NCBI GenBank assembly: GCA_945862195.1 | Contig: CAMAXR010000006.1 | Span: forward strand, 1 to 34,782 | DNA from: Hylemonella gracilis | Lineage (GTDB): Bacteria; Pseudomonadota; Gammaproteobacteria; Burkholderiales; Burkholderiaceae_C | Reading direction: 5' to 3' | DNA length: 34,782 bases | Notes under the pieces: model-generated | Seen by the model: only the letters and a program-made list of their open reading frames with translations | Databases searched by the model: none | Told to the model about the DNA's origin: nothing | Translations under genes and position numbers: made by a program | In this document: positions 1,043-7,971 of the stretch, in pieces | How positions within the stretch are numbered: position 1 is the stretch's first letter | Layout of the letters: each line of letters opens with the position of its first letter

Positions 1043-2047
1043 TCAGACCTCGTCGTAAACCACTTCGAGGCTGGGCTTGACCGTGTCGGTGCGGCCCACC
1101 ATGTCAAACAAGGTGGCTGGCTCTAAGACCACGTTGCGTCCGGTCACGTCAGAACTGAACAAACCCAGCAACTGGTCTTGGGTTTGGGGCTTAGGTCTCA
1201 CGGGCGGCGCCTCGGCCACATTTTTGGCCAACTCGGCAAACAAGGGGCCCCACTCGCCATCGGGCTTGCCAATGATTTCGTAGCTGGCACTCTTGCGACG
1301 GATGTCTTCGTGCGCAGGAATGGCCGCCAGAACCGGAATGCCTGTGTTGGCTGCAAAGGCTTGCGCCTCGCCAGTGCCATCGTCTTTATTAATCACCATG
1401 CCCGCCACGCCCACGTTGCCACCCAGCTTGCGGAAATACTCCACCGCCGAGCACACGTTGTTGGCAACATACAAAGACTGCAGATCGTTGCTGCCCACCA
1501 CAATGACCTTTTGGCACATGTCGCGCGCAATAGGCAAGCCAAAGCCGCCGCACACCACGTCGCCCAAGAAGTCGAGCAGCACGTAGTCAAAGCCCCAATC
1601 GTGGAAACCCAATTTCTCAAGGGTTTCAAAGCCGTGGATGATGCCGCGGCCACCACAACCCCGACCCACTTCGGGTCCACCCAGCTCCATGGCAAACACG
1701 CCGTCGCGCTTGAAGCACACGTCGCCAATGCTCACCGCTTGACCCGCCAACTTGAGGCGCGATGAGGTCTCGATGATGGTGGGGCAGGCTTTACCGCCAA
1801 ACAGCAAGCTGGTGGTATCGCTTTTAGGGTCGCAACCAATCAGCAGCACTTTTTTGCCCTGCTGCGCCATCATGTAGCTCAGGTTGGCCAGCGTGAAGCT
1901 TTTGCCAATGCCCCCCTTGCCATAGATGGCAATGATTTGGGTCTCTTTGGTGACTTCCCCTGTAGCCACCGTATCGGGCTCCATGGCGGCTTCTTTGCGA
2001 AGCGTTTCCACAAATTTCAAGGGTTGCTCGGTAGTCAATGTATTCAT
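1043..2047 (-). CDS. bchX: Chlorophyllide reductase iron protein subunit X
   Basis: 334 aa; NifH/BchL-like P-loop IAIYGKGGIGKSFTLANLSYMMAQQGKKVLLIGCDPKSDTT; bch gene context. Confidence 0.96.
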   Translation of the reverse strand: MNTLTTEQPLKFVETLRKEAAMEPDTVATGEVTKETQIIAIYGKGGIGKSFTLANLSYMMAQQGKKVLLIGCDPKSDTTSLLFGGKACPTIIETSSRLKLAGQAVSIGDVCFKRDGVFAMELGGPEVGRGCGGRGIIHGFETLEKLGFHDWGFDYVLLDFLGDVVCGGFGLPIARDMCQKVIVVGSNDLQSLYVANNVCSAVEYFRKLGGNVGVAGMVINKDDGTGEAQAFAANTGIPVLAAIPAHEDIRRKSASYEIIGKPDGEWGPLFAELAKNVAEAPPVRPKPQTQDQLLGLFSSDVTGRNVVLEPATLFDMVGRTDTVKPSLEVVYDEV

Positions 2048-2997
2048 GCGTTAGCACTCCAGTCCAAAATCATCTTCAGGCAATGGGCATCGTTAAATGC
2101 CACGTCATAAGCAGCAGGTGCTTGGTTCGGGCTTTGTGTATGCGTGATCAAGCCATCGAGCGAGAGACGCCCGTTGTGGACCAACTCGGTGACGGCCAGC
2201 AGGTCGGCACGCTTCCACTCGGCGGCAGTACGAATCTGTGCTTCGCGCATGAAGGCAGGCGCATAGGCGAAACTCAGGTCTTTGGTGTAAAAGCCAGCCA
2301 GCACCACCTCGCCACCGGGCTGTAAGCGCTGGATGAGTTGGTTTAATAAATTGGCGTCGCCACTGACGTCGTAAATGGCCCGATAGTCTCGGCGAGAGTC
2401 ATCGTCGGGGTGGATCACTTGATAACCCTCTGCCCCTTGGCTGCGAGCGCTTTGAGTTTCCCAAACCGTGGGGGCCGGTTCTCCGCTGGCTACAGCCATA
2501 CGGGCCAAAAGCCGCCCCATCACACCATGCCCCACGATGAGATCGGGTGCCGCAGCGGGTGCGCCGATGCCCCCTCTAGATACAGCGTGGTAGGCCGTGG
2601 CAGCCAATGCCAAGAGCACCGCTTTTTCTTTGAGCCATTCTTCAACCTTGACCACTTTGTCTTGAGACACCACCAAATCAGAAGCGGCACCACCAAAGAG
2701 GCTGCGCACTCCCCTGAAACAATTGGCTCCAGGTACAAACACGTAGTCGCCGACTTTGTATTTGCTTTGGGGCAAGACGTAACTGACCCTGCCAGCGGTT
2801 TCGTAGCCCGGAACCAAGGGATAGCCCATGCCCGGAAAGGCCGGCATGCTGCCATCCCAAAGCAGACGCTCGGTACCTGTGCTGATGCCGCTGTAAGTGA
2901 CTTCGACTTGAATTTGCCCGTCTTTTAGAAGAGGCAAGTCCAAAGACTGCAGGGCCAACGCCCTTGGATGGTTAAATACAACGGCTTGTGAATTCAT
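2044..2997 (-). CDS. bchC: Bacteriochlorophyllide a dehydrogenase (2-desacetyl-2-hydroxyethyl bacteriochlorophyllide a dehydrogenase)
   Basis: 317 aa zinc-alcohol-dehydrogenase-like protein (MNSQAVVFNHPRALALQSLDLPLL...); ATGA overlap with bchX. Confidence 0.94.
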   Translation of the reverse strand: MNSQAVVFNHPRALALQSLDLPLLKDGQIQVEVTYSGISTGTERLLWDGSMPAFPGMGYPLVPGYETAGRVSYVLPQSKYKVGDYVFVPGANCFRGVRSLFGGAASDLVVSQDKVVKVEEWLKEKAVLLALAATAYHAVSRGGIGAPAAAPDLIVGHGVMGRLLARMAVASGEPAPTVWETQSARSQGAEGYQVIHPDDDSRRDYRAIYDVSGDANLLNQLIQRLQPGGEVVLAGFYTKDLSFAYAPAFMREAQIRTAAEWKRADLLAVTELVHNGRLSLDGLITHTQSPNQAPAAYDVAFNDAHCLKMILDWSANA

Positions 2998-3000
2998 GGG

Positions 3001-3070
3001 TGTATTTTTTAACTTACATTGAAGGACGTCAACTTATATTTACAGATATTGATGTTTATCAGGGTAAACA
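3001..3070 (-). promoter_or_regulatory. Candidate PpsR/CrtJ operator array upstream of bchC (three boxes)
   Basis: TGTATTTTTTAACTTACA (3001-3018), CGTCAACTTATATTTACA (3027-3044, one mismatch), TGTTTATCAGGGTAAACA (3053-3070); two exact 8-bp spacers; motif TGT-N12-ACA. Confidence 0.85.
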
Positions 3071-4237
3071 CTTAGATTTGCGGCCAATCAGCACCCGAGC
3101 GTGTATGGGCATGGCGTTGGGCAGCAACTCCAAATGGCTCAATCCACTCTGAGCCATCAGATTCATCAACTCAGTAGGGGTGCGCAAGCGTCCGGACCCC
3201 ATGGCCAACAGGTAGTAGTGGAAATACGCATCTGCTAAGGGGGGCTGACCAGGCTCTTGGGCCATGGGTTCTGCAATCAACAAGGTACCGCCTAAAGGCA
3301 AGGCCTCAAAGGCTTTGCGCAAAATTTGCAGTACGACCGCATCAGAATGGTCATGCGCCACCCGAACCAGGGTGATCAAGTCAGCCCCTTTGGGTAGGGG
3401 GTCGCTTAAGAAACTGCCGGGGTGCAAACTCGCTCGGCTCAATAAACCTTGCGCCTTGAGCCCCACTTGGGCCAACTGCAGCACGGGCGCCAAATCAAAC
3501 AGCTGAATCTTGAGATGCCGCTCTTGTTGGGCCAGTTGGCTGATAAAACGCCCCTTACCCGCCCCCACATCCAGCACGCATTGGTGGTCGCTGAAGTTGT
3601 AGGTGCTCAGAATTTCACCGACCACAAAGTTTTGTGAGGCATCCATTAAGGCGGAATAGCGTGAGAAAGCGTCTTGTGCCTGGGGCACTTCAGCCGCGGA
3701 CTCTTTGCCGTGCGCGTACGGCCAATAGCCCGCCATATCGCCCCGCCAAGCGTCACGCAAAAAGGCTACCGGGTCTTGTAGATCCAAATACAACAGGTGG
3801 TTGTGTTCAACCATGGCGCGCACACCCTCGTGCGTTGCCACAGGCAAACCCAATGGGCCCAGCCCCACACGCCCTTGACTGCGGTGCTCCAACAGCCCCA
3901 ACGCAATAGCAGAGAGCACCAAGCGCTGCAAGCTGGCGGCGGGTACCTCCACCCGATGGGCCAAGTCTTTGACGGTCATGGGTGAAGCGCGCAGCAGCGC
4001 AAATACATTAAGGCGCACACAACTGATCAACACTTGGGTGTGCACAAAGCCACCCATGAGGTCGTAGAGTTGCTGGGTTCGCCTGCGGGCGACCCAACGT
4101 GTGAGCGGGTTGCTGATGGCCCAGCGGTAGACCACGGGGTCGGCCATCCAGCGCTCTAAGGTGGTGTGGATTTTTTCAATCCACCCCCAAGAGCCACCGT
4201 GCTTTGCCGCGGGTGGAGTGAAGTCAAGTTGATGCAC
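3059..4237 (-). CDS. crtF: Demethylspheroidene O-methyltransferase (hydroxyneurosporene methyltransferase)
   Basis: 392 aa SAM methyltransferase (VLDVGAGKGRFISQL) with N-terminal dimerisation/winged-helix region; between crtE and bchC. Confidence 0.93.
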   Translation of the reverse strand: MHQLDFTPPAAKHGGSWGWIEKIHTTLERWMADPVVYRWAISNPLTRWVARRRTQQLYDLMGGFVHTQVLISCVRLNVFALLRASPMTVKDLAHRVEVPAASLQRLVLSAIALGLLEHRSQGRVGLGPLGLPVATHEGVRAMVEHNHLLYLDLQDPVAFLRDAWRGDMAGYWPYAHGKESAAEVPQAQDAFSRYSALMDASQNFVVGEILSTYNFSDHQCVLDVGAGKGRFISQLAQQERHLKIQLFDLAPVLQLAQVGLKAQGLLSRASLHPGSFLSDPLPKGADLITLVRVAHDHSDAVVLQILRKAFEALPLGGTLLIAEPMAQEPGQPPLADAYFHYYLLAMGSGRLRTPTELMNLMAQSGLSHLELLPNAMPIHARVLIGRKSKCLP

Positions 4238-5153
4238 GGGTCACCTCTGCATGAATCTGGCGCTGTGTGGCTTGCCCAGCAGCTTTGCCAGAAGCCTCGA
4301 TGGCCGCACGGGGGACCAATCGCTCGGCCTCGAGCCGGACCAATTGCTTGAGCATGTCTTTGCAAGAGCAAGGAGGCACGCTGTCCACCGCCTGCTCAAT
4401 GAGCTTATTGAAATACGACAGCGCCCCCTCTAAGCCCAGCTGATGGGCCACGCTGGGTCTTTCGTGCAATTGGTCTTGACCAGCAGGCTTGCCCAGTTCG
4501 GCAGCCTGCATCACCACATCTCGAATGTCGTCGGCCACTTGGTAGGCCTCGCCCAAATTGGAGCCCAAGCCAATCCAAGGTCGGGCGTCGCTGGCAGAGG
4601 CCAAGGCCCCAGCGCAGGTGGCGGCCACAAACAATGCCCCGGTTTTGGCTCTTTGATACTGGCTTAAATCGGCCGCGGGCTCGCACTCCCAAGCCTGCCC
4701 TGCCACAATGCCGTGCGGTAAGCCGACACCTGTGCACAGGTTTTGCATCAACCCCACCAAGCGCATGGGATGCTCAGCACAGGCATTGGCAAGCACTTGA
4801 TAGGCCATGACAATCAGGGCATCACCGGCTAATAAAGCAAGCGGCTCGCCATACACCTTGTGCACCGTGGGGCGGCCACGGCGAATGTCGGCATCATCAA
4901 AAGCGGGCATATCGTCGTGAACCAAAGACGCGCAGTGCATCAATTCAAGCGATACCGCCGCCGCGTCCGATAAATTGGGTTGGTCGTCGCCACAGGCCAT
5001 GGCCACACTCAAACAAAGCTGCGGCCGAATGCGCGCCCCGCCTGAAAACACAGCGTGCCGCATGGCCTCCACCAATCGGGGCGGCGCCCCTAAACCCACG
5101 GCTTGATCAAAATGAACCCGCAAGGCTTTTTCAGCCCGATCCAGAAGACTCAT
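4224..5153 (-). CDS. crtE: Geranylgeranyl diphosphate synthase
   Basis: Polyprenyl synthase motifs DDMPAFDDADIRRG and DDIRD; overlaps crtF by 14 nt. Start set at internal ATG (MSLLDRAEKAL) behind GGAG; the ORF track extends to 5174. Confidence 0.94.
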   Translation of the reverse strand: MSLLDRAEKALRVHFDQAVGLGAPPRLVEAMRHAVFSGGARIRPQLCLSVAMACGDDQPNLSDAAAVSLELMHCASLVHDDMPAFDDADIRRGRPTVHKVYGEPLALLAGDALIVMAYQVLANACAEHPMRLVGLMQNLCTGVGLPHGIVAGQAWECEPAADLSQYQRAKTGALFVAATCAGALASASDARPWIGLGSNLGEAYQVADDIRDVVMQAAELGKPAGQDQLHERPSVAHQLGLEGALSYFNKLIEQAVDSVPPCSCKDMLKQLVRLEAERLVPRAAIEASGKAAGQATQRQIHAEVTRAST

Positions 5154-5206: not shown

Positions 5207-5276
5207 TGTCAACATTTATTTACATATCATTATGTAAATGTAGTTAGATTTGCGGGTTTGTCAACCTAGGTTTACC
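5207..5276. promoter_or_regulatory. Candidate PpsR/CrtJ operator array shared by divergent crtE and adenylate cyclase
   Basis: TGTCAACATTTATTTACA (5207-5224, exact), TGTAAATGTAGTTAGATT (5233-5250, left half only), TGTCAACCTAGGTTTACC (5259-5276, one mismatch); two exact 8-bp spacers. Confidence 0.78.
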
Positions 5277-5290
5277 TGAGGAGGCGTTTT

Positions 5291-6655
5291 ATGGGCATTT
5301 GGATTGAGCTGGGGCTGGTTGTATTGCTATTGGCTTTTGGACTTTGGCAGATTAGAGGTGTGAAAAGAGAACGCGCCAAGCGTCACATGAATGTGACAAC
5401 GCTGCCCATGCAACCAACATCTTCCCAAGCAACAGCACCCTCCTGGCTGGATGCCTTGGAGGCGCGTCTTGTCAGAAAAAACGCCTCACCGGACGAGAGA
5501 CTCAAGAAGATGATCCTGATCATCTTCTTGGCGCTCGCGGTTGTCTTCTTTGGCGCCCACTCTGTGTTCTTTCTCATGGGAGGGGGATATCTCACAGCTT
5601 CACTCACTTTTGTCGGTTCTGTAGTCGCCGCAATTTGCGGGGCAGCTGTGATTCGAGCGATTGATCCCCTTCCGTTATGGCGTGTTTACACGGTGTTTCA
5701 CTTTGTATTGTTTTTCTTCATCAATCACTTTCAAGGGGGCCTGCAAAACGCCCAAGGCTCGCTGATCTATGTGCTGTTCTTCCCCTTGTTGACCTTTGCG
5801 GTCGATGGAATACGGGCAGCAGTGATCACGATGGTTGGAGGTGTCGGCATTTACCTTGCTTCAATTCTGGCGGCACCCTATGCACCGGTGGACCAGCTGC
5901 TGCCCGCTTGGATGTTGACTTCCCTAGGGCTTCAGAACATGTTGGGCACCACCTTTATTGGCCTCATTGCTGTTTACCTCTATGGTCGACAAAGTCAACT
6001 CCTGTCCTTACAGCTGGTCAAGGCGAAGGAAGCAAAAGCAGAAGAAACACAGGCTTTGCTGGAAAATATTCTTCCGCGAGAAGTGGCTGTGGAGCTTGCA
6101 AGAACAGGATCTGTCAACCCCGTGCGACACGAAGCGGTTTCGATCCTTTTTACGGACTTCAGCGGGTTCACTCAGGCGTCTGCCGCTATGCCTGCAGACA
6201 TGGTGGTCAGCCAGCTGAATGAAATCTTTGCTGCCTTCGACGACATTTGTGACGGCTGCGGCGTGGAAAAGATCAAGACGATTGGAGATGCATATATGGC
6301 TGCCGCAGGTGTTCCGCAGGGCTGTAGCGACCACGCACAACGTTGCGTCCGCGCTGCGCATGAGATGCTGAAGTTCATGCAGACCCGTAACGCGGCCTCA
6401 GCATTCAAGTGGGGCTTGCGGGTGGGTATTCACTCTGGCCCAGTGGTCTCGGGCGTGGTGGGAAAGCGCAAGTACGCCTTCGACGTTTGGGGCGATTCTG
6501 TCAACATCGCGGCACGAATGGAGGCCAGCGGAGAGGTGGGTCGGGTGAATGTTTCTGCCTACACCTGCCACTTGATACGCGATGAGTTCACTTGCGAGTA
6601 CAGAGGAAAGCTCGAGGTGAAGGGAAAGGGGCCCATTGACATGTACTTCGTTTAA
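5291..6655 (+). CDS. Membrane-anchored class III adenylate cyclase
   Basis: 454 aa; several N-terminal TM segments, then catalytic domain VSILFTDFSGFTQ...EKIKTIGDAYMAAAG...GLRVGIHSGPVVSGVVGKRKYAFDVWGDSVNIAARME. Lys in EKIKTIGD, Asp in FDVWGD and N...R in NIAARM match the ATP-specific pattern. SD GAGGAGG upstream. Confidence 0.92.
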   Translation: MGIWIELGLVVLLLAFGLWQIRGVKRERAKRHMNVTTLPMQPTSSQATAPSWLDALEARLVRKNASPDERLKKMILIIFLALAVVFFGAHSVFFLMGGGYLTASLTFVGSVVAAICGAAVIRAIDPLPLWRVYTVFHFVLFFFINHFQGGLQNAQGSLIYVLFFPLLTFAVDGIRAAVITMVGGVGIYLASILAAPYAPVDQLLPAWMLTSLGLQNMLGTTFIGLIAVYLYGRQSQLLSLQLVKAKEAKAEETQALLENILPREVAVELARTGSVNPVRHEAVSILFTDFSGFTQASAAMPADMVVSQLNEIFAAFDDICDGCGVEKIKTIGDAYMAAAGVPQGCSDHAQRCVRAAHEMLKFMQTRNAASAFKWGLRVGIHSGPVVSGVVGKRKYAFDVWGDSVNIAARMEASGEVGRVNVSAYTCHLIRDEFTCEYRGKLEVKGKGPIDMYFV

Positions 6656-6736: not shown

Positions 6737-7129
6737 ATGTTGAGGATCCTCACTCTAGTAATGCTATTGGCTTTGGGTTCAGGTGTGGCGCTCGCACAGC
6801 GCATGTACGACTCAAGTGGCCGACAAATCGGCCGTGTGGATGGAGAGCGTTATTACGACGGTTCAGGCCGTCAAATTGGGCGCGTTGATGGGTACACCGT
6901 TTACGACGGATCGGGCAGGCAGCTCGGGCGCATTGATGGCGAGCGTGTTTACGATGCTTCTGGTCGACAAATGGGACGCATTGACGGCGAGCGTCTGTAC
7001 AGCGCTTCCGGTAGCTCGATGGGCCGCATCGATGGTGAACGGCTATATGACGGGTCAGGTCGACAAATTGGCAGGGCTGATGGTTTGAGACGGATGCAGC
7101 TGATCGTCTTCTTTTATTTCTTTATGTGA
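6737..7129 (+). CDS. Secreted six-repeat protein (beta-flower-like, repeat YDGSGRQIGRVDGER)
   Basis: Signal peptide MLRILTLVMLLALGSGVALA-Q followed by six 16-aa repeats; SD AAGGAG upstream. Confidence 0.8.
   Translation: MLRILTLVMLLALGSGVALAQRMYDSSGRQIGRVDGERYYDGSGRQIGRVDGYTVYDGSGRQLGRIDGERVYDASGRQMGRIDGERLYSASGSSMGRIDGERLYDGSGRQIGRADGLRRMQLIVFFYFFM
6803..7090 (+). repeat. Six tandem 48-nt coding repeats (16 aa each)
   Basis: MYDSSGRQIGRVDGER / YYDGSGRQIGRVDGYT / VYDGSGRQLGRIDGER / VYDASGRQMGRIDGER / LYSASGSSMGRIDGER / LYDGSGRQIGRADGLR. Confidence 0.93.
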
Positions 7130-7294
7130 CCTTTACGTCCTGACTTTTTCGGGGGTTCAATCCCCCAGACGGGCGGGCAGCAAAGGCCGCCTCCGCTGCT
7201 TAAGCAGGTTGTGCCGATACTTTTTGCCAACTTGCGCTTTGGCGTCATTTCCATAAAATGACATCATCGATTCTTTTTGATGGTGATATACCAA

Positions 7295-7552
7295 ATGGCA
7301 AACGTGAATGTCAGAAACCTACCCGACGAAGTCCATCGGGCCATCCGAATCCAAGCCGCTCATCATGGTCGCAGCACCGAGGCGGAAATCCGCGACATCC
7401 TAGAACGGGCAGCTAAGCCGCCGGGGCGCGTGAAACTGGGCTCGCTCCTGGCGTCCTTCGCTCGCGAGGCTGGCGGCCTGACCGATGAGGAACATGCTTT
7501 ATTCGAGCGCGCGCGCATCAAGACTGCGGCGCGTGCTGCAAATTTTGAATGA
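7295..7552 (+). CDS. FitA/VapB-like antitoxin
   Basis: MANVNVRNLPDEVHRAIRIQAAHHGRSTEAEIRDILERA: ribbon-helix-helix FitA-like; ATGA overlap with downstream PIN gene. The track start at 7277 (TTG) is probably too far upstream. Confidence 0.88.
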   Translation: MANVNVRNLPDEVHRAIRIQAAHHGRSTEAEIRDILERAAKPPGRVKLGSLLASFAREAGGLTDEEHALFERARIKTAARAANFE

Positions 7553-7971
7553 TCCTGCTCGATACGAATGTGATATCGGAGCCGCAGCGCCTGGAACCGA
7601 ATGCCCGCGTCCTTGAATGGATCGACGCACAAGCGCTGGAAACGCTCTACCTGTCCGCGATTACGGTAGCCGAGCTGCGTGCAGGTATCACGCTAATGCC
7701 TGTCGGGAAGCGCCGGGACAGCCTCCATGAAAACTTGGAAAAACGCCTGCTGCCGATGTTTGCCAATCGGGTGTTATCGTTCGATATGGCTTGCACAAAA
7801 GCCTATGCCGAACTGGTGGCCAAGTCTCGCGCCGCAGGCTTGACGATCGAAACTGCAGATGCCTTCATTGCAGCCGTCGCTCTCGCTAACGGCTTCGCCG
7901 TTGCCACTCGCGACACCAGACCTTTTGAAGCAGTCTCGGTAATCGTCATCAACCCTTGGAATGGCGTCTAG
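7549..7971 (+). CDS. FitB/VapC-like PIN-domain toxin
   Basis: MILLDTNVISEP...SAITVAELRAGI...TADAFIAAVALANGFAVATRDTRPFE: PIN domain acidic residues. Confidence 0.92.
   Translation: MILLDTNVISEPQRLEPNARVLEWIDAQALETLYLSAITVAELRAGITLMPVGKRRDSLHENLEKRLLPMFANRVLSFDMACTKAYAELVAKSRAAGLTIETADAFIAAVALANGFAVATRDTRPFEAVSVIVINPWNGV

Follow-up and report, generated by a model that had tools for sequence, protein, structure and literature searches.

Between crtE and a divergently oriented adenylate cyclase gene, the window (the whole stretch of 34,782 nucleotides of DNA analysed here, from Hylemonella gracilis, a freshwater bacterium that harvests light) contains three boxes related to the TGT-N12-ACA motif of PpsR, the repressor of photosynthesis genes; crtE itself is a carotenoid gene. 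Their arrangement raises the questions of whether the boxes form an operator, which of the two flanking genes it serves, and whether the third site has a part in it.

Position, phasing and scores of the boxes

Direct reading of the window confirms what had first been noted there, as the boxes start at 5207, 5233 and 5259 in a period of exactly 26 bp, with 8-bp spacers, and 14 bp lie between the end of box 3 (5276) and the ATG of the divergent gene at 5291 (Table 1). Box 3 meets five of the six positions of the TGT-N12-ACA core. The array spans 70 bp (5207–5276) and lies inside an intergenic stretch of 137 bp, a length that follows from placing the crtE start at the ATG at 5153, which is more likely than 5174; the ATG at 5153 has a GGAG Shine-Dalgarno sequence, and homologues align from residue 1 there.

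Table 1 Features of the window discussed in the text.
Feature	Position	Strand	Description
bchC	2044..2997	-	TIGR01202, 428 bits
bchC array	3001..3070	.	boxes at 3001, 3027 and 3053
crtE (polyprenyl/GGPP synthase)	4224..5153	-	Pfam polyprenyl_synt
Box 1	5207..5224	.	TGTCAACATTTATTTACA, exact TGT-N12-ACA
Spacer 1	5225..5232	.	8 bp, TATCATTA; differs among relatives
Box 2 (middle)	5233..5250	.	TGTAAATGTAGTTAGATT, left half-site only
Predicted crtE -10 hexamer, TACATT	5237..5242	-	consensus scan; overlapped by box 2
Spacer 2	5251..5258	.	8 bp, TGCGGGTT; differs among relatives
Box 3	5259..5276	.	TGTCAACCTAGGTTTACC, one core mismatch
Predicted crtE -35 hexamer, TTGACA	5259..5264	-	consensus scan; equals left half of box 3
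Divergent gene, class III adenylate cyclase	5291..6655	+	Guanylate_cyc domain

The boxes were scored with a PpsR matrix derived from the bchC promoters of distant Burkholderiaceae (54 TGT-N12-ACA sites), with no crtE sequence in the training set. Boxes 1, 2 and 3 score 21.6, 5.0 and 17.1, respectively, against a matrix maximum of 27.2. Out of 20,000 dinucleotide-preserving shuffles of the 137-bp stretch, none attained the summed triple score of 43.7 at any period between 18 and 40, 26 included, and the best null triple at period 26 was 8.9; about 0.13% of shuffled positions score at least as high as the middle box. The exact phasing read from the letters is thus borne out. Throughout the window, triples above 20 occur at period 26 only. 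The bare TGT-N12-ACA motif is found in the window about as often as chance predicts (10 observed, 9.05 expected), so single sites prove nothing and the weight is carried by phasing and matrix scores.

A search of the window's genome for the three-box pattern, allowing up to three mismatches in the 18 core positions, returned the crtE and bchC arrays and nothing else. The same pattern in 26 genomes of the genus gave matches at crtE or bchC only where bchC is present, along with a few scattered three-mismatch matches away from these genes. The sequence-only reading had itself proposed a genome-wide search as a check on the phasing, and the strict three-box pattern was accordingly run over a family set of 401 genomes, 60 of which have bchC above cut-off. 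Six genomes matched, four of them at crtE, and the reversed-pattern control gave zero matches; among the six, the match in G095 is a short tandem repeat and that in G341 lies away from recognised photosynthesis genes. A further three-box match, in a phototrophic relative (G420:C7, locus L166), has no adjoining photosynthesis gene recognised by an NCBIfam search.

The genome that carries the window also encodes the presumptive ligand of these sites. Its ppsR gene (G000:C22:21-1343) matches TIGR02040 at 421.7 bits against a cut-off of 275.4, the encoded protein has PAS and Fis-type HTH domains, and two B12-binding AerR/PpaA-like proteins are encoded as well. PpsR-type sites are present at hemC/hemA, pucC, bchI, bchF and ppsR itself. 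At hemC/hemA and upstream of pucC (L035, 8456-8499 and 9857-9900) these are two-box sites with no third box, and at bchI there is a single site (L035, 12966-12983). Together, the bchC-trained matrix, the presence of ppsR and the recurrence of the motif at PpsR regulon genes support the assignment of the boxes as PpsR-type sites.

The predicted crtE promoter and conservation of the array

A consensus scan of the region found one promoter, on the crtE strand, with the form TTGACA-N16-TACATT and 10 of 12 promoter bases matched. Its -10 fits the consensus at four of six positions, where most relatives have TATATT. With the -35 and -10 taken as a consensus match read in the register of the boxes, and the transcription start set 7 nt beyond the -10, box 1 lies at +7 to +24, box 2 at -3 to -20 and box 3 at -29 to -46; boxes 2 and 3 thereby overlap the -10 and -35 of this predicted promoter.

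We consider it highly probable that the crtE promoter has its operator in this 70-bp array, with PpsR on box 2 across the -10 and on box 3 across the -35, and with box 1 as a third, downstream site. PpsR dimers would occupy two 18-bp palindromes, 26 bp apart from centre to centre, covering the -10 (box 2) and the -35 (box 3), and would exclude RNA polymerase in the manner of CrtJ at the bchC promoter of R. capsulatus. Through box 1, which keeps the register and lies shortly after the predicted start, the cooperative complex would reach across the initial transcribed region as well. The right half of the middle box would fall between the -10 and the -35, where it may have been left to drift, and its left half would abut the -10, which could account for its being a half-site. 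We infer PpsR binding, cooperativity among the three sites and repression of crtE.

The distribution of the array among relatives agrees with a three-site arrangement in one lineage. The regions upstream of crtE and bchC were extracted from the 60 family genomes with bchC and from the eight genomes of the genus set that have it. In all four sets of offset profiles, the two-site offset of -26 is the top peak; peaks at +/-13 and +/-39 are partial self-matches of the palindrome and were rejected as real spacings. In a tree of crtE proteins, the high triple scores fall in one clade (support 0.999), which includes the window, Rhodoferax lacus (L016), a Limnohabitans MAG (L034) and others. With the bchC-trained matrix, the best triple is found at period 26 in 18 of the 19 crtE loci of this clade, and the mean best triple over the 19 loci is +37.0 at period 26 versus -7.2 at the next best, period 20, among periods 19 to 40. 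The exceptions within the clade are L139, with two boxes 50 bp apart, and L159, which has no box 1. The remaining 45 crtE regions, like the other bchC regions, have the two-box 26-bp step and no triple. The promoter is preserved along with the boxes: all 18 clade loci that keep the register have TTGACA-N16-TA(T/C/A/G)A(T/G)T in the same place, with the -35 matching at six of six positions and the -10 at four or more of six in every one. Upstream of crtE in other Burkholderiaceae (loci L096 to L138), there is mostly one PpsR box over a -10 (TATTCT) with TTGAC about 31 bp away, a register different from that of the window's clade.

Within the clade, the right half of box 1 and the left halves of boxes 2 and 3 are near-invariant, and the right halves of boxes 2 and 3 vary. 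When the window is compared with L002 and L161, variable columns number 2 of 54 in the boxes versus 8 of 16 in the spacers (Fisher p = 5e-5). The idea that the three sites form a functional architecture therefore gains support, as the array is kept over one clade with its boxes conserved and its spacers not. The degenerate middle box, which had been put forward as part of that architecture, is instead a trait of some lineages, since the middle boxes of L014, L034, L144, L147 and L149 are nearly complete.

The divergent gene, the third site and other readings

The array had also been described as shared by crtE and the cyclase, which makes the identity of the divergent gene important. With the 454-aa cyclase as query, most matches share only the first ~30 residues, and it is by this limit that the N-terminus was recognised as a separate small protein. 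The first ~33 residues of the cyclase belong to a small PGC-associated membrane protein (MGIWIELG...) fused to it in frame, and in most close relatives the gene facing crtE encodes a 36-59-aa protein of this kind alone (MGIWIELG-FxLxLAFGLWQI-DVKxxR), with one predicted membrane segment and no significant Pfam match. Among the loci examined, the fusion is found in the window and L002 only; L003 has a stand-alone cyclase of 76% identity with a start of its own, and DNA collinearity between the window and L013 ends at 5391. The fused gene is under purifying selection, as judged from a dN/dS of 0.20 between the window and L002.

Several further features were observed around this gene. At the fusion junction of the window (5380-5398) there is an inverted repeat, GTCACAT-GA-ATGTGAC, that is imperfect in L002 and is possibly a trace of the joining event. 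The small MGIWIELG protein is not specific to photosynthesis, since Hydrogenophaga MAGs (L017, L018) also encode it at places not adjoining crtE. A gene for a beta-flower protein and a VapC-like PIN gene occupy 6737-7971, between the cyclase and dnaG; L002 lacks this stretch, and in L013 the beta-flower gene has the inverted orientation.

A bidirectional operator that co-regulates crtE and the small membrane protein, here fused to the cyclase, would suit both the 14 bp that separate box 3 from the divergent start codon and the position of the small protein opposite crtE in most close relatives. However, the array is not tied to this neighbour: it is present at five loci that lack the small-protein gene (L034, L144, L147, L149 and L157), and L162 and L163 have the neighbour yet keep only the left half of box 3, the half that serves as the crtE -35. 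Moreover, a plus-strand promoter toward the cyclase was sought in the consensus scan of the region and none was found. Because the array persists where the small-protein gene is absent, we assign it, on this distribution, to crtE. The geometry would allow PpsR to control the cyclase, but as no conserved promoter pointing toward it was found, and as the cyclase is a lineage-specific fusion, we lean against a bidirectional operator while granting it a serious chance.

The place of box 1 in the crtE operator can be questioned too. If only an ordinary two-site operator (boxes 2 and 3) mattered, box 1 would be a relic or a weak auxiliary half-site, in keeping with the two-site, 8-bp-spaced operators usual for bchC and for most other crtE promoters, and with the loss of the left half of box 1 in L143, L145 and L148 and of the whole box in L159. 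It is difficult to reconcile a relic with the window, where box 1 is the strongest of the three, or with its identity in three species (window, L002 and L161) whose adjoining spacers have diverged; in addition, most of the clade retains the right half of box 1 at a place where no promoter element accounts for conservation. We therefore think it rather unlikely that boxes 2 and 3 alone matter, although the loci with a reduced or missing box 1 indicate that the third site may be dispensable.

Two other explanations fare much worse. Since the assignment to PpsR is based on motif and context, some other regulator with a TGTCAA-N6-TTGACA dyad might own the boxes, but the matrix was derived from bchC promoters, PpsR is encoded in the genome, and the same motif occurs at the standard PpsR regulon there, ppsR included, which makes another owner very improbable. 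Least credible is that the conserved half-sites are mere core-promoter elements (TTGACA, TATATT) with an incidental resemblance to PpsR sites. In its favour, the left half of box 3 reads TGTCAA, the complement of the crtE-strand TTGACA, at all 18 clade loci, stricter than a matrix that also allows the TGTAAA often used by box 2 and fitting for a sequence with double duty as the crtE -35. Against it, box 1, the half-site beside the -10 and the right half of box 3 all score high without matching a sigma-70 element, and box 1 by itself forms an exact palindrome that the closest relatives of the window preserve.

The bchC array and known PpsR and CrtJ operators

The array upstream of bchC had been taken as a second instance of the same architecture, with the middle box again the degenerate one. 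At bchC, however, the middle box, CGTCAACTTATATTTACA, scores 17.7, and it is the third box, TGTTTATCAGGGTAAACA, that is weak, with a score of 5.3. Two of the boxes, at 3001 and 3027, correspond to the pair common throughout the family, and the third (3053-3070) lies upstream of this promoter pair and overlaps the crtF stop codon. Its right half (GTGTTTACCC when read along the crtF strand) is conserved at -70 to -72 relative to the bchC ATG; as it is kept even where crtF ends before reaching it (L016, L139 and L145) and it is no longer coding, it is probably regulatory. The two arrays thus share their step length but not their architecture, as the third site is downstream of the predicted start at crtE and upstream of the promoter pair at bchC. 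The lower bchC box stands 4 bp before the ATG (2997-3018), as it does in several relatives, and the R. capsulatus geometry would here set the transcription start on the ATG, which suggests a leaderless bchC mRNA.

The 26-bp step with its 8-bp spacer is not in itself new, as it is the known two-site CrtJ/PpsR layout of R. capsulatus bchC. There, CrtJ palindromes lie at -4 to -21 and -30 to -47 (PMC5362033), and CrtJ binds the two sites cooperatively (PMC5362033 and its reference 14; Ponnampalam et al. 1998). Boxes 2 and 3 at crtE resemble this operator in having two TGT-N12-ACA sites 26 bp apart over the -10 and -35, and fall within 1 bp of its positions relative to the predicted start. They differ in belonging to a crtE promoter, in having only half a site at the -10, and in being joined by a third phased site downstream of the predicted start. 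Judged by this correspondence, boxes 2 and 3 are the known CrtJ/PpsR operator transplanted to crtE, and box 1 is a clade-specific addition. In the PpsR/CrtJ literature compared, the downstream third site, the restriction to one clade and the varying half-sites are undescribed.

Other systems share individual features. Rubrivivax gelatinosus, also of betaproteobacterial lineage, has paired, partly degenerate PpsR sites at crtI (8-bp spacer) and pucB (9-bp spacer) (PMC4452267), but only two in each case. In that species, 8-bp-spaced sites bind PpsR without redox dependence and redox-dependent binding needed the 9-bp spacing (PMC4452267), which is absent from the crtE array; for this reason, constant repression relieved by an antirepressor would be at least as likely here as direct redox switching. 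The available parts of the reports on R. sphaeroides and R. capsulatus give crtE as a direct PpsR target by ChIP-seq in the former (PMC4344238) and crtED as a CrtJ target in the latter (PMC5362033), so that control of crtE from a divergent intergenic region has parallels in crtEF/crtCD and crtED; in those species the divergent gene is a carotenoid gene, and the same parts of the two reports do not describe three-box phasing. The bchF/ppaA region of Dinoroseobacter shibae likewise has more than two PpsR sites in one divergent region, with four motifs, two of which, over the -10/start and the -35, were confirmed in function by mutation (PMC10890935), but a regular 26-bp phasing of three sites is not described there. 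Three PpsR boxes at or close to this register also stand upstream of bchC in other Pseudomonadota, in steps of 26 and 25 bp (L175, L176) or 26 and 26 bp (L192), although these are bchC promoters of other families; their presence indicates that extra phased sites arose more than once.

PpsR forms dimers, tetramers and octamers (PMC3949515). It is conceivable, although we regard it as unlikely, that PpsR assembles cooperatively along the DNA in 26-bp steps, and that such a series can grow downstream, as at crtE, or upstream, as at bchC. Boxes 1 and 3, which are 52 bp or about five helical turns apart, would then share one face of the DNA, and the middle half-site would lie on the opposite face. 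The AerR-extended CrtJ border, at +58 in R. capsulatus bchC, would represent two further 26-bp units, and the fused cyclase would have come under the same complex, so that cAMP synthesis would be tied to photosynthesis repression in the lineage of the window. The cyclase fusion clearly exemplifies the joining of a signalling gene to one that immediately adjoins a photosynthesis operator. A natural three-site operator with a fixed 26-bp step, conserved in one clade whose members differ in the half-sites they retain, offers a test series for how PpsR and CrtJ are arranged on DNA, both for cooperativity beyond two sites and for an AerR-type extended footprint at the downstream site.
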